DNA from: Gammaproteobacteria bacterium
GTDB lineage: Bacteria > Pseudomonadota > Gammaproteobacteria > VBWC01
Reading direction: 5' to 3'
DNA: 64,000 bases
Assembly (NCBI GenBank): GCA_006218035.1
Contig: VBWC01000010.1
Location: 139,572-203,571, forward strand
In this document: positions 42,361 to 61,997 of the stretch, piece after piece
Layout of the letters: each line of letters starts with the position of its first letter
Position numbering within the stretch: position 1 is the stretch's first letter
The notes under the pieces: generated by a model
Told to the model about the DNA's origin: nothing
What the model saw: only the letters and a program-made list of their open reading frames with translations
Databases searched by the model: none
Made by a program: the position numbers and the translations under genes

Positions 42361-42392
42361 CAAAAAAGAAACCCCGCCAATGGCGGGGTTCC
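42361..42392 (-). terminator. Intrinsic terminator of the cold-shock gene
   Basis: On the minus strand the arm AACCCCGCC, the loop ATT and the arm GGCGGGGTT make a nine-pair GC-rich hairpin followed by TCTTTTTTG. This is a canonical Rho-independent terminator about 30 bases after the cold-shock gene stop codon. Confidence 0.92.
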
Positions 42393-42421
42393 GTACTACA
42401 CCTTGCTAATGTTGGCGCGCT

Positions 42422-42625
42422 TTAGACAGCGACAACATTGGCAGCGGCCGGGCCCTTCGCGCCGTTCTGGACGTCGAAGCATACCCGCTGACCTTCATCG
42501 AGGCTTTTGTATCCATCGCCGGTGATAGCGGAGTGATGTACGAACACATCCTTGTCACCATCTTCGGGAGAAATAAAACCAAAGCCTTTTGAAGCGTCAA
42601 ACCACTTTACAATACCAGTCTTCAT
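42422..42625 (-). CDS. CspA-family cold-shock protein
   Basis: This 67-residue OB-fold protein binds single-stranded RNA and DNA and melts RNA structure. The RNP1 motif [11 protein letters not shown] and RNP2 motif DVFVHHSAI are intact, and [20 protein letters not shown] is the usual ending. It has a complete transcription unit in view: a promoter at 42811-42839, a leader of about 180 bases, and an intrinsic terminator. The long leader is typical of cold-inducible csp genes whose mRNA refolds at low temperature. An AAGGAA ribosome-binding site precedes the ATG. Confidence 0.96.
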
Positions 42626-42804
42626 TAAAAAATATTCCTTGAACTAATTACAAAAAAGTCTGCGTGAGAGTCATGAAGGAAGGATGACAGGAGGACACCA
42701 CAGGGGGTATTCCGCTACTAACCGACAAACAACAACAATACGGCAAACTGCAAATTGTCCGCGCTTCTTATCCGTGTTGACGTGATATAGACCCGCGAAC
42801 ACCA
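42626..42804 (-). promoter_or_regulatory. Long 5' leader of the cold-shock gene
   Basis: The predicted transcript leader of about 180 bases contains no reading frame. It includes a T-rich stretch just before the ribosome-binding site (ACTTTTTTGTAATTAG) and a purine/pyrimidine-biased central part. A long structured leader is established for cspA-type mRNAs as a cold-responsive switch. I could not fold it here. Confidence 0.5.
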
Positions 42805-58348: not shown

Positions 58349-58379
58349 CTGGTCAACGATATATCGGTTGAGAGATGTT

Positions 58380-58685
58380 ATGGCTGGCGATACCCCCATA
58401 CCCGAACGACTGCGGCAGGCCCGCGAGAGGGCCGGCCTTTCCCAAAAGGCACTAGGGATTAAAGCCGGTATCGATGAATTTTCCGCCAGCCCGCGGATAA
58501 ACCAATACGAAACCGGCAAACACACGCCGGACTTCCAGACCATGGAAAGACTCGCGGGAGCCTTAGGCATACCAACACCTTTCTTCTATTGCCGGGACGA
58601 CGTGCTGGCAGAGCTGGCGCTGGCGCTGGGCGAGATGTCCAAGACGCAGCGGAAAGACCTGCTCAAAGAATTGAAAGGCGCGTAG
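58380..58685 (+). CDS. XRE-family transcriptional regulator
   Basis: This is a 101-residue protein starting at MAGDTPIPERL. Helix-turn-helix segments occupy about residues 8-65: RLRQARERAGLSQKALGIKAG and SPRINQYETGKHTPDFQTMERL, ending at GIPTPFFYCRDD. A C-terminal helix (ELALALGEMSKTQRKDLLKEL) may mediate dimers. It probably controls itself and the divergent ankyrin gene through the two 15-bp palindromes between them. It resembles phage-repressor-like regulators of mobile islands. The nuclease-like gene follows 47 bases later on the same strand. Confidence 0.9.
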   Translation: MAGDTPIPERLRQARERAGLSQKALGIKAGIDEFSASPRINQYETGKHTPDFQTMERLAGALGIPTPFFYCRDDVLAELALALGEMSKTQRKDLLKELKGA

Positions 58686-58732
58686 AGATGACCTACCTCG
58701 CGCGCTCTGCTGTTCGTTTCTGACGCACTCCG

Positions 58733-59182
58733 ATGAGTACAAGCGACAAACACCAACGTATAGCCGCCATCCAGCATCTACTCGCCAGCATATTCGCTTC
58801 CCAGAAAGCCTTAAAAGAGCTTGCCCCGGATTACAACTGGAGCGGTCTCGGCAATTTGCTTGGCGATTTTGGTGAACTGATCGCGATTGATCACTACGAC
58901 CTAACGAAAGCCCCGTCCGGCGCCAGTAGTTACGACGCACTCACGCAAGATGGCAAGACAGTTCAAATAAAAACTAACCGCGCAGCAGGTCAAATAGGGT
59001 TCCGTGGTGACGCAGATCTTCTGCTTGTTATCGGAGTTTCCAACGACGGGCAATGGAAGGAAATCTACTACGGTGATTTTAAAGCCGTCAAAAATCTGTC
59101 TCGATACTCAGCGAGAGATAACAAACACATGATAGCCGTCTCTAAACTTGAGGCCCTATCTACTTCGACGCGATATAAATAG
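58733..59182 (+). CDS. PD-(D/E)XK-like nuclease of unknown family
   Basis: This 149-residue protein appears to be a restriction-endonuclease-fold nuclease. A helix with a Glu (LLGDFGELIAIDHYDL) is followed by SSYDALTQDGKTVQIKTNR. In that stretch the Asp and the Q-x-K pair match the D-(X)n-(E/Q)XK active-site pattern. A strand pair (DLLLVIGVSNDGQW, IYYGDFKAV) follows. It resembles DUF6998-like nuclease folds. It lies between the XRE regulator and the RT with its structured repeats and looks AT-richer than the core genes, which supports island membership. A role in cleaving foreign or host DNA is inference. Confidence 0.7.
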   Translation: MSTSDKHQRIAAIQHLLASIFASQKALKELAPDYNWSGLGNLLGDFGELIAIDHYDLTKAPSGASSYDALTQDGKTVQIKTNRAAGQIGFRGDADLLLVIGVSNDGQWKEIYYGDFKAVKNLSRYSARDNKHMIAVSKLEALSTSTRYK

Positions 59183-59261
59183 AGAGTATTTGTGGCCTGT
59201 CCCCCATTATTCTCCTGCCCTTGTTTTTTATTGACCCTGCACCCAATATAGATCGGTATCT

Positions 59262-59355
59262 TTGCATGCTCAACGTTCGGGCCGCATGGCGGTGCCGCGA
59301 CGGGACGAGCATGCGCGGTGACTCCTGTAACGAGGAGCCCCGAAGGATGCAACCA
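59262..59355 (+). ncRNA. Structured repeat element, copy A
   Basis: This 94-base element has nested complementary arms: TTGCAT/ATGCAA outermost, TTCGGG/CCCGAA inside it, and GCATG/CATGC and GCGG/CCGC in the core. The first 59 bases are identical to copy B. The two copies differ after GCGCGGTG, where copy A has a longer stretch (ACTCCTGTAACGAG), and match again in GAGCCCCGAAGGATGCAACCA. The arms are kept while the length between them varies, which is what a folded RNA would show. Whether it is transcribed is unknown. Confidence 0.5.
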
Positions 59356-59511
59356 ATGCCCAGTCGTTCTGCAAATGACCGTAACTTGGCCCTTAATTGG
59401 TCCTCACCGGACGGTCGCAGAACTTGTTTTCAGGGCGGAGGTGGTCGTGGCCGGCGCGGAATTGACAAAAAGCTCAAAAAGGTAGACTTGAGCGAGGAGA
59501 TAACGCGATGA
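59356..59511 (+). CDS. Possible small basic protein upstream of the RT
   Basis: A 51-residue frame starts MPSRSANDRNLALNWSS with AAGGA about nine bases upstream. It has a Gly/Arg-rich middle (CFQGGGGRGRRG) and a Lys-rich end (DKKLKKVDLSEEITR). Its TGA overlaps the ATG of the next frame (ATGA). It might be an RNA-binding accessory, or might not be translated, since the sequence may serve as structural RNA. Confidence 0.35.
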   Translation: MPSRSANDRNLALNWSSPDGRRTCFQGGGGRGRRGIDKKLKKVDLSEEITR

Positions 59512-59680
59512 CCAGGGCGAGATGCAAAAACGTGCCAGTTTGGTGCGGGGTTGGTGGCTCGGCTGTGCTACCACCATCATTCTTGCATGCTCAACGTTCG
59601 GGCCGCATGGCGGTGCCGCGACGGGACGAGCATGCGCGGTGGGAGCCCCGAAGGATGCAACCACTGTTAAGCGACTGGGC
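59358..59680 (+). ncRNA. Candidate RT-associated non-coding RNA region
   Basis: The region is bounded by a 9-bp inverted repeat, GCCCAGTCG at 59358-59366 and CGACTGGGC at 59672-59680. It ends 40 bases before the reverse transcriptase start. It holds a GACCGT...ACGGTC stem near 59377-59417 and the whole of structured element copy B. Its position and closing stem are like those of ncRNAs that serve as RT templates. Its length, 323 bases, is larger than typical retron ncRNAs. The call is inference. Confidence 0.4.
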
Positions 59681-59687
59681 AAAGTGA
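59508..59687 (+). CDS. Possible small protein spanning structured element B
   Basis: A 59-residue frame starts MTRARCKNVPVWCGVGG with GAGGAGA seven bases upstream, a strong ribosome-binding site. It reads through copy B (HAQRSGRMAVPRRDEHARW) and ends LLSDWAK before the RT. It is basic and has two cysteines. No family is recognised. The ribosome-binding site and the ATGA overlap with the frame before support translation. The RNA structure within it argues for caution. Confidence 0.4.
   Translation: MTRARCKNVPVWCGVGGSAVLPPSFLHAQRSGRMAVPRRDEHARWEPRRMQPLLSDWAK
59584..59664 (+). ncRNA. Structured repeat element, copy B
   Basis: An 81-base element starts TTGCATGCTCAACG and ends GCCCCGAAGGATGCAACCA, with the same nested arms as copy A but without the 13-14-base stretch after GCGCGGTG. 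It lies about 55 bases before the RT start codon. Being kept in two copies next to an RT makes it a candidate template or primer RNA. Confidence 0.5.
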
Positions 59688-59720
59688 ACCGGTGAGGCCC
59701 AGCTCATACACAGACCAAAG

Positions 59721-60974
59721 ATGGCCAACAATCTATACGATCGAGCTCGAAAACGGAGATCACTCGATAGCGCGTGGCGTATAGTTCTCGCGAATGGCCT
59801 CGCCTCAAAATCGGACATCACACGTAGAGAAGTAAAAGAGTTCGCTGTAGATGCCGACCGTCATATAGGTCGAATCAGCAGACAACTTTTAAAGCGTCGG
59901 TTCGAATTCGCTCCCTCCGAAGGAATCCTCATACAGAAACAGGGGAAGTCTTCAAAGCGCCCTATTGTAAAGGCCCCAATAACAAATCGAATCGTACAAC
60001 GAGCAATTCTCGACACGCTCCAATCGTTCCAACCACTCGCGCCCTTTTTCCAGGTTGAAACCAGTTTCGGAGGACTCAAAGGAAAAGGCGTACCCGATGC
60101 GTTGAAAGCTTGTTATCAGAAAATACAATCTGGCGCAAGAAACTACATTAGATCCGACATCGAATCATTTTTTACTCTAATCCCTAAACCGACGATCGTT
60201 TCAACGATCAGAAAGATAGTTGCCGATGAAGAATTCCTTAAGCTGTTTGAATCCGCAATAACAACCGAGCTCGCAAATCTTGCCGATCTTGGAAAAGAAA
60301 AAGAAGCGTTCCCGATTTACGACATTGGCGTAGCGCAGGGCTCGTGCCTATCTCCACTGCTAGGTAATATCCTGTTAAGTGAGTTCGACCGCGAAATGAA
60401 CGTCGGCGACATTTCCTGTTACCGCTACATCGATGACTTCATTATTCTCGCGCCAACTGAACGCGCGGCGAACGCGGCGTTCAAGCGCGGCTTAAAGTTG
60501 CTAAACAGCCACGGGCTAACCGCATACGACCCGAAGACTAACAACGACAAAGCGGAACTAGGTAAAACTAGCGGGATGTTTACCTTTCTTGGTTGCGACA
60601 TCCGACCAGGAATGATACGTCCCAACAAGAAATCGAAACGGCGACTGATCGACAACATCGACCAAGTATTCGGTGAAAGCATAGCGCTTATGCGTGACCC
60701 GGTAAACCTAATAGCCGCCCATCGAACCGTAGCGGAAACACTGAGCGACGTAAGCAATATATTGCAAGGCTGGGGGAATCAATATTCATTCTGTAATGAT
60801 GCCATTTTTATGCGGCAAATAGATGAGACTGTCGACAAGAAAATCGCGACGTACTTAAGCAAGTATTCTAATCGGAAGGATGAGTTTGAAAAGAGCGGAC
60901 AGCCGGAAAACACACGGCGCTTGCTGGGCGTCCACTTGTTATGCGATAGCAAGAAAGCACCAATTGTTGTCTAG
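59721..60974 (+). CDS. Reverse transcriptase without endonuclease domain
   Basis: This 417-residue RT has the expected blocks: SSKRPIVKAPITNRIVQRAIL (RT1), SDIESFF with catalytic Asp146 (motif A), AQGSCLSPLLGNILL at 205-219 (motif B) and the YIDD active site at 236-239 (motif C, YRYIDDFIIL). FTFLGCDI follows at 287-294. A thumb-like stretch ILQGWGNQYSF resembles group II intron RTs, but no HNH endonuclease follows. The NAxxH and VTG motifs of retron RTs are not seen, nor are DGR features. The region is AT-richer than the core genes, a sign of transfer. It is preceded by the structured repeats and a 9-bp inverted repeat. Confidence 0.9.
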   Translation: MANNLYDRARKRRSLDSAWRIVLANGLASKSDITRREVKEFAVDADRHIGRISRQLLKRRFEFAPSEGILIQKQGKSSKRPIVKAPITNRIVQRAILDTLQSFQPLAPFFQVETSFGGLKGKGVPDALKACYQKIQSGARNYIRSDIESFFTLIPKPTIVSTIRKIVADEEFLKLFESAITTELANLADLGKEKEAFPIYDIGVAQGSCLSPLLGNILLSEFDREMNVGDISCYRYIDDFIILAPTERAANAAFKRGLKLLNSHGLTAYDPKTNNDKAELGKTSGMFTFLGCDIRPGMIRPNKKSKRRLIDNIDQVFGESIALMRDPVNLIAAHRTVAETLSDVSNILQGWGNQYSFCNDAIFMRQIDETVDKKIATYLSKYSNRKDEFEKSGQPENTRRLLGVHLLCDSKKAPIVV

Positions 60975-61169
60975 CCCCTGCCGTCAAATACAATCCATAA
61001 TGACGGGTTACTGGCGCAGATTGTTTTCTGGATTCTTCGGTCCTTGCTCCCGGCAGGACTCTACCTCGCCCGTCCATGGGCTTATGTCTGCGTTTCTTCC
61101 GGAGTGATGTGCGATCGGAGGGACTGGATTCCCGCTTTCGCGGGAATGACGAACGTCGCAATGACTGCG
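60975..61169. repeat. REP-like and MITE-derived sequence downstream of the RT
   Basis: This 195-bp gap contains a stretch at 61061-61082 (CTACCTCGCCCGTCCATGGG, then CT) found with one mismatch inside MITE-like copy 2. A REP-type hairpin lies at 61124-61152 (CTGGATTCCCG, CTTTCG, CGGGAATGACGA). No gene is seen. Confidence 0.7.
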
Positions 61170-61997
61170 TTATTCCCCCGGCTTCACAAACTTCAGCGTA
61201 AACCGGTCGCTTTCGCCGATGGCGAGGTAGACGTCCCGGTCTTTGTCTTTCAGTGCGAGGGTCGGGGGGAGTGTCCAGACGCCTTTTTTGTAGTTCTTGG
61301 TGTCTTTGGGGTTGGCGTTGATTTCGCTGCTGGCCACAAATTTGAAGCCGGCTTTTTCGGCGAGCTTGATGGCGTAGTCCTGGTTGACATAGCCCGAGCC
61401 TGCCTTGGGGTCTTGTGCAACATTCGGGTCGCCGCGGTGTTCTACCACGCCGAGTATGCCGCCGGGTTTGAGTGCCTTGTACATGGCGGCGAATACTTCA
61501 TCGGCGGTGCCGGCGTTCATCCAGTTATGGATGTTACGAAACGTCAGCACTCTGTCGGCGCTACCTGCCGGGGCGATGGTGGTCTGTTTGGGTAGCTCCA
61601 GCACGGTGATGTTGACCTTGCTGTAGATGGCGCTGGATGCCATTTTCTTTTTGAAACTTTCAGCGCTTTCTCGGGAAAATTTGCTGTGCGATTCCGGATC
61701 GTTACCGGCGGCATAGTAGGTGCCTTTGTCTTTTAAAAACGGCGCGAGGATTTCGGTATACCAGCCGCCGCCGGGGACGATTTCGACGACGGTCATGTCG
61801 CCTTTGACTTCGAAGAACTCCAGCGTTTCGATCGGGTGGCGGTATTGGTCGCGCGCCTTGTTTTCGGCGGAGCGATGGTCGCCGGCCAGTATTTTGGCAA
61901 GTGCGACAGCGGTGTCGTCGGCGGCGCTGGCCGGGGTGGTGACGAGTGTTAACGCTGAAAAGATGGCGGCGGACAAAACGGCGGTGAGATTTTTCAT
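61170..61997 (-). CDS. Periplasmic SAM-dependent methyltransferase-like protein
   Basis: This is a 275-residue protein from the ATG at 61997 (MKNLTAVLSAAIFSAL). A signal peptide (SALTLVTTPASAADD) predicts export. The mature part is a Rossmann fold: MTVVEIVPGGGWYTEILAPFL (motif I), KVNITVLELPK, ADRVLTFRNIHNWM and LKPGGILGVVEHRG. A C-terminal part (AGFKFVASSEINANPKD) follows. Exported SAM-dependent enzymes are odd because SAM is cytoplasmic, but this family is widespread and its ligand may differ. The longer upstream frame is rejected, as it lacks a ribosome-binding site and crosses repeat sequence. Confidence 0.85.
   Translation of the reverse strand: MKNLTAVLSAAIFSALTLVTTPASAADDTAVALAKILAGDHRSAENKARDQYRHPIETLEFFEVKGDMTVVEIVPGGGWYTEILAPFLKDKGTYYAAGNDPESHSKFSRESAESFKKKMASSAIYSKVNITVLELPKQTTIAPAGSADRVLTFRNIHNWMNAGTADEVFAAMYKALKPGGILGVVEHRGDPNVAQDPKAGSGYVNQDYAIKLAEKAGFKFVASSEINANPKDTKNYKKGVWTLPPTLALKDKDRDVYLAIGESDRFTLKFVKPGE

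Follow-up and report, generated by a model that had tools for sequence, protein, structure and literature searches.

A reverse transcriptase of the G2L4 clade is preceded by a repeat-flanked unit that probably stores a small membrane protein gene in permuted order

The locus described here raises the question of why two copies of one short sequence lie directly in front of a reverse transcriptase (RT) gene, and what the enzyme might make of them. It is found in a stretch of 64,000 nucleotides of bacterial DNA, which is called the window below. An initial annotation, made from the letters of the window, had proposed that the RT has an RNA element of its own lying upstream, fits neither the retron nor the DGR rules, and had left the RT itself unplaced. 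The 417-residue RT with intact YIDD on which this proposal was built is indeed present:

59721–60974, plus strand: G2L4-clade reverse transcriptase, 417 aa (phmmer and tree)
60426–60437, plus strand: YIDD active-site motif (from sequence)

By sequence search and tree, this RT can now be placed in the G2L4 (group II intron-like 4) clade. Among solved structures, phmmer matched it to the G2L4 RT of PDB 9d5x at 2.9e-75 and to the next group II RT at 1.3e-17, and it shares about 39% identity over its full length with the G2L4 RT of Pseudomonas aeruginosa. In a tree of 90 RTs, built by a quick method with midpoint root while a thorough search was incomplete, 85 sequences including the window RT and 9d5x fell on one side and five group II RTs apart (SH-aLRT 100); the PDB sequence was sister to that of L038, a locus that has the repeat module described below. 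The active site reads YIDD in most of the clade, and YVDD or otherwise in some. Alignment of the RT3a plug (D182/R190/R191 salt bridges) placed E at the acidic position of the window RT, G at R190 and K at R191, with a plug insertion two residues shorter than in the PDB protein.

Several known kinds of RT system were considered and rejected. A mobile group II intron is ruled out by the failure of an Rfam search to find intron RNA (domains V–VI), with no group II family matched over 58690–61170 even at E 5. The retron St85 model reached 36 bits against a cut-off of 235, msr/msd having been sought through Rfam only, and the Drt2 model NF041746 reached 30 bits against 390. DRT10 was rejected because its UG17 profile, the next-best named RT profile in PADLOC, scored 133 bits against 257 for G2L4 RT, and because the window showed no SLATT partner: neither the HTH protein nor the DUF6998 protein upstream is a SLATT, and the ORF downstream has no Pfam match. 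A DGR is likewise ruled out, as the two repeat copies of the window differ by a 13-nt indel and one base and not in an adenine-directed manner. Thus, the initial annotation was right that the RT comes with an RNA element upstream and is neither retron nor DGR, while its unplaced RT has found a clade.

The repeats themselves are as follows:

59262–59358, plus strand: direct repeat copy 1 (R1), its first 59 nt identical to copy 2; it would provide the middle of the split ORF described below
59583–59666, plus strand: direct repeat copy 2 (R2)

The identical 59-base first part noted in the initial annotation is followed by 13 extra nt in copy 1 and by a final 25 nt with one mismatch, giving 86% identity with the indel included. 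The repeat is not due to chance, since 59 nt are exact and the same arrangement occurs in relatives with other sequences. The 3.01-Mb genome holds no further copy beyond R1 and R2, which rules out a dispersed repeat of the REP kind. RNA folding of the repeat was only moderately better than that of shuffles (z of -2.4 for copy 1 and -1.45 for copy 2; mean z of -1.9 in 49 relatives).

Homologues were collected from plasmids, viral contigs, a phylum draw and 80 species-genome loci; a one-protein query scan of genome contigs gave no match, and a search of two whole families of genomes added few new loci. In 54 loci there are two near-identical direct repeats of ~100–160 nt, the second starting 320–485 nt after the first and ending ~45–80 nt before the RT. 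The copies are 88–100% identical within a locus, and the R sequence differs between loci. At the same loci, such repeats were almost never seen downstream or further upstream of the module, and no repeat pair was found upstream of five group II intron RTs. The repeat pair is a general and apparently undescribed feature of the G2L4 clade, and the module keeps company with RTs of this clade over several phyla.

The ends of the two copies are joined by long-range complementarity:

59357–59368, plus strand: 5' arm of helix P1, following R1; 12 bp with 59670–59681, unequalled in 100 shuffles
59670–59681, plus strand: 3' arm of helix P1, following R2; pairs with 59357–59368
59398–59410, plus strand: 5' side of a second long-range arm, TGGTCCTCACCGG; pairs with 59689–59701
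59689–59701, plus strand: 3' side of the second long-range arm, CCGGTGAGGCCCA; pairs with 59398–59410

P1 contains the 9-bp inverted repeat GCCCAGTCG/CGACTGGGC (59358–59366 / 59672–59680), which had been taken as a bracket around the spacer and the second copy; it can be extended to 12 bp, and comparison of loci identifies it as a conserved helix between the sequences after R1 and after R2. Such complementarity reached p<=0.01 in a shuffle test in 40 of 50 loci, and the arms vary in sequence: they read GCCCAGTCG/CGACTGGGC in the window, CCTGACCGTTG/CAACGGTCGGG in the alphaproteobacterial group, CCTGTCCGATCAG/CTGGTCGGACGGG in L023, TACCTCTGTA/TACAGAGGTA in L055 and CCCCAGCCAG/CTGGCTGGGG in L060. 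The shuffle test was used in place of a comparison of P1 energy with foreign partners, which is a weak test because clades share arm sequences. The initial annotation had made its reading depend on what homologues carry upstream, and it survives its own test because these have both the repeat pair and the inverted repeat at corresponding upstream positions; nor does intron RNA lie near the RT.

Two promoter-like sites accompany the repeats:

59222–59252, plus strand: outer promoter-like site, TTGTTT N19 TATAGA, about 9 nt before copy 1
59462–59488, plus strand: inner promoter-like site, TTGACA N15 TAGACT, conserved including its A-tract spacer

Over 48 loci, the best sigma70-like -10 element fell 22–9 nt before copy 1 in 23 (2.8 expected), with the mean score peaking by 4–6 sd at -18..-12; the outer site of the window is not the best-scoring one in the window itself. 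From this position, the outer site is predicted to set the start of a template RNA at copy 1. The inner site (TTGACn, A-tract, TAnnnT) lies about 90–107 nt before R2, and the best promoter-like site of the unit was 135–60 nt before R in 35 of 50 units, where 10.4 were expected. Most spacers (34/50 two-R loci) also contain the motif AAAAA[CG] twice, in the window once in the inner promoter spacer and once in TGCAAAAACGTGCC at the start of the N-part (see below). A protein motif is ruled out for the conserved TGCAAAAACGTGCC, which can be read in more than one frame and for that reason appears to be partly conserved as nucleic acid; the second AAAAA[CG], read in different frames, may be a contact for RNA or RT.

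The spacer between the repeats holds two pieces of what appears to be one gene:

59359–59485, plus strand: C-part, the putative 3' portion of the split ORF, ending at TAG 59483–59485
59522–59582, plus strand: N-part, the putative 5' portion, ATGCAAAAACGTGCC (MQKRA...), start of the hydrophobic segment

When the N-part, R and the C-part are joined, the window yields a product of 94 aa, MQKRASLVRGWWLGCATTIILACSTFGPHGGAATGRACAVTPVTRSPEGCNQCPVVLQMTVTWPLIGPHRTVAELVFRAEVVVAGAELTKSSKR, that starts at 59522 and stops at 59483–59485, the TAG overlapping the inner -10 box; an in-frame MQK[RH]A start is common to about 16 loci. The openness of this frame was tested on the plus strand with 45 nt before and 90 nt after R, the expectation being taken from dinucleotide shuffles. 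The joined frame (spacer 3' end, R, spacer 5' part) was open in 48 of 50 loci against 13.7+-2.9 expected, although z-scores overstate such results because the loci are related. In its own genomic context, copy 2 gave open frames in 12 loci (10.3 expected) and copy 1 in 26 (9.2 expected), the latter exceeding chance because R-C is shared with the joined frame; the opposite strand gave 21 against 18.1. In the two remaining loci, R1 has small indels at its left end; placing the switch from R2 to R1 inside R rescued both (50/51 loci open), whereas the reciprocal product was open in 6/51.

The joined proteins also resemble each other. A hydrophobic stretch (17 residues, KD >= 1.6) was found in the joined frame of 39/49 loci against 5/245 other frames, and in most cases it crosses from N into R; in the window, the joined frame scored 1.45. 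The joined protein of the window matched those of L018 (41% over 91 aa, 9e-8) and L004 (32% over 111 aa, 7e-7) through both borders, and, outside the largest alphaproteobacterial group, each of the 16 strongest pairs covers N, R and C in the joined frame. Codon-level signals were more modest: the third-codon-position excess was clear in R of the large alphaproteobacterial group and weaker elsewhere, and pN/pS outside R was only moderately below 1, the joined frame not always being the lowest. In that largest group the opposite strand is likewise open and similar, and the joined frame is without the MQK start, so that the start codon is not uniform. No family in Pfam, PADLOC or PHROG matched the joined proteins, and a single-sequence AlphaFold model of the contiguous joined ORF of L079 was set aside at pLDDT 43. 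An endless, neo-like ORF is ruled out, as stops are present and unit lengths are mostly not multiples of 3. Overall, we hold it very likely that the joined ORF is a real coding sequence. A split gene is probably stored in the wrong order between the repeats, its product being probably a small membrane protein, and a gene stored in this permuted way would be readable only after head-to-tail copying of its pieces. The copies, for which a duplicated template or primer structure was initially suggested, are better read as terminal direct repeats of a split-gene unit.

How could such copying come about? The repeats, the helix, the promoter positions, the joined frame and the homology are read from sequence, and they suggest a retroelement-like module in the order outer promoter, R1, C-part, inner promoter, N-part, R2, RT. 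Judging from the position of the outer promoter, a template RNA would run from R1 through R2, these ends being predicted. The sequence after R1 would then pair with that after R2 and close the RNA, a step supported by the conserved pairing. The RT would copy R2, the spacer and R1, whereupon the R1 cDNA could re-anneal to R2 and copying continue, resulting in a tandem cDNA of the unit, as in strand transfer at the retroviral R region. If a second strand were made, the unit would read inner promoter, ATG, N-part, R, C-part and stop, an intact gene absent in that form from the chromosome. The protein expressed from it, about 90–145 aa long with a hydrophobic segment at its N-terminal end, would probably be an effector that acts on membranes and is produced on demand.

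Strand transfer between R1 and R2 by the RT, giving tandem cDNA that assembles the hidden gene, is in our judgement the best explanation and a reasonably likely one; we give the same fair measure of confidence to the narrower claim that the RT itself joins the split ORF. Strand transfer is preferred because R1 starts at the promoter, the helix ties the ends of R together and the inner promoter precedes the split ORF, and also because the G2L4 RT is known for strong strand annealing, along with snap-back activity (PMC12337344). The tandem units present at two loci are a further point in its favour. Counted against it are that no RNase H is encoded to release the R cDNA, that the G2L4 RT has been published as a DNA-repair enzyme with no RNA partner reported (PMC12337344), and that single-R, spacer-less loci, a weak pN/pS and an open opposite strand in the largest group exist.

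The main rival is recombination between the repeats at the DNA level, in which R1 x R2 crossovers amplify or excise the unit, the intact gene arises in tandem arrays or circles, and the RT does other work, such as end-joining repair. Copy number does vary as this would require: L013 and L079 (the latter again as L097) each carry two tandem units with three R, an arrangement in which the assembled chromosome already holds the joined ORF uninterrupted, and loci lacking the pair mostly have a single R at the R2 position, without a spacer. Such single-R loci make up about a quarter to a third of those with enough upstream sequence. A crossover anywhere within R would, moreover, yield an open frame. 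In L029/L030 (CP051228), the two ends of one MAG contig cover the same RT region, one end with two R and the other with one; a difference of exactly one unit makes assembly collapse likely for many single-R loci, the alternative being true loss. These loci are indeed mostly draft assemblies, in which many contigs break at R. Contigs starting ~80–245 nt upstream of the RT, in or near R, were observed at L016, L025, L028, L041, L053, L063, L066, L067, L070, L073, L074, L087 and L094; assemblies break at the repeat, which could also mean that the DNA sequenced contained additional copies of the unit. Recombination would leave unexplained why R1 starts at the promoter start site, why the ends of the two R are tied by a helix of RNA type and why the association with this RT clade is constant over several phyla, and we regard it as unlikely.

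Considerably less probable is a DGR- or retron-like use, in which R2-templated cDNA overwrites R1, or R is made into structural cDNA, and the joined ORF is a by-product left by an ordinary small gene that was duplicated in tandem in an ancestor. A template repeat and a target repeat next to an RT do resemble TR/VR, some copying must keep the copies identical, and the excess of open R-C frames in copy-1 context would fit; nonetheless, the differences between R1 and R2 are few, clustered at the left end and often indels, the order is R-C-N-R in all two-copy loci and never N-R-C, and nothing would hold the inner promoter and N-part in frame with C. A circular or spliced RNA, cut at the R/P1 borders and ligated into a circular mRNA with the joined ORF, is a little less probable still: P1 draws both R ends together and the RT descends from group II intron maturases, but R1 and R2 would have no need to remain identical, and Rfam yielded no ribozyme or intron family match. 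Least probable of all is that there is no gene, and that relatedness and G+C-rich composition open the joined frame of a conserved structured RNA with repeats, for while the opposite strand is open too in many loci and pN/pS is weak in several groups, shuffles fall far short of the joined context, copy 2 in its genomic context stays at chance, the hydrophobic segment is limited to the joined frame and protein homology across clades runs through the junction.

If strand transfer does assemble the gene, its product may perhaps act in phage defence. The neighbours of 41 loci (a raw list, without background rate) include restriction-modification, PD-T7, DrmMI, MADS-type and toxin-antitoxin genes, resolvases and integrases, and some module copies are in viral contigs; on these grounds we lean to a defence role. 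Directly upstream of the module in the window, 58368–59182 encodes an HTH protein that closely resembles restriction control (C) proteins and, in addition, a DUF6998 protein weakly similar to methyl-directed restriction enzymes; this region is a possible defence island. Elsewhere in the window, a cspA thermoregulator RNA (Rfam RF01766) lies at 42364–42747 on the minus strand. At L004, L005/L089, L006/L090 and L086/L091 the module is situated in phage-like regions (inovirus-type Gp2, integrase, terminase-like ORF).

To our knowledge, and in the literature searched, DRT2 is the only known case of a hidden gene made by reverse transcription. We are inclined, by a narrow balance, to regard G2L4 RTs as a second, independently evolved class of gene-assembling RT, with a permuted gene for a small membrane protein that standard annotation would miss, kept between terminal repeats and made whole by strand-transfer reverse transcription, and their DNA repair as a side of strand annealing. 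If true, a second case in another RT clade would make hidden-gene assembly a recurring mode of gene storage in several phyla, a natural template RNA would be at hand for the solved RT structure, and the DNA-repair role now accepted for G2L4 RTs could be tested directly. Genomes could be searched by a simple rule, namely direct repeats before an RT and a unit that contains an ORF once its ends are joined.

Retroviral and LTR-element R regions allow strand transfer between RNA ends, and the module is like them in that a repeat is predicted at the start of its RNA and occurs again near the 3' side; it differs in having no integrase, RNase H or gag, and is not homologous. Like DGRs, it has a ~130-nt repeat that is present twice next to the RT gene, but it is without adenine-directed variation and a separate target gene. 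The P. aeruginosa G2L4 RT (PDB 9d4s/9d5x), of the same clade and with the same YIDD, acts in microhomology-mediated end joining and has been described as free-standing (PMC12337344; PMC13015716), and it differs from the window RT in the plug as detailed above; no upstream RNA, repeats or hidden gene for G2L4 RTs were found in the literature searched, a 2022 Cell paper lying outside that search. DRT10 (UG17) makes ncRNA-templated tandem-repeat cDNA (PMC12632851), as is predicted for the module; its repeats are, however, short and telomerase-like and it has a SLATT partner, whereas the module has long units with an ORF. The closest parallel in operation is DRT2 (neo), where an RT with an upstream RNA creates, from head-to-tail units, an ORF with a promoter in front (PMC11100668, PMC12039810). 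The Drt2 RT belongs to another clade, its RNA relies on 3-nt ACA motifs instead of terminal repeats of about 130 nt, its promoter is formed across the junction and not inside the unit, and its ORF is never-ending, while that of the module is finite, with a stop and a unit usually not a multiple of 3, and its product hydrophobic. On this comparison, the module would work like DRT2 but is not DRT2.
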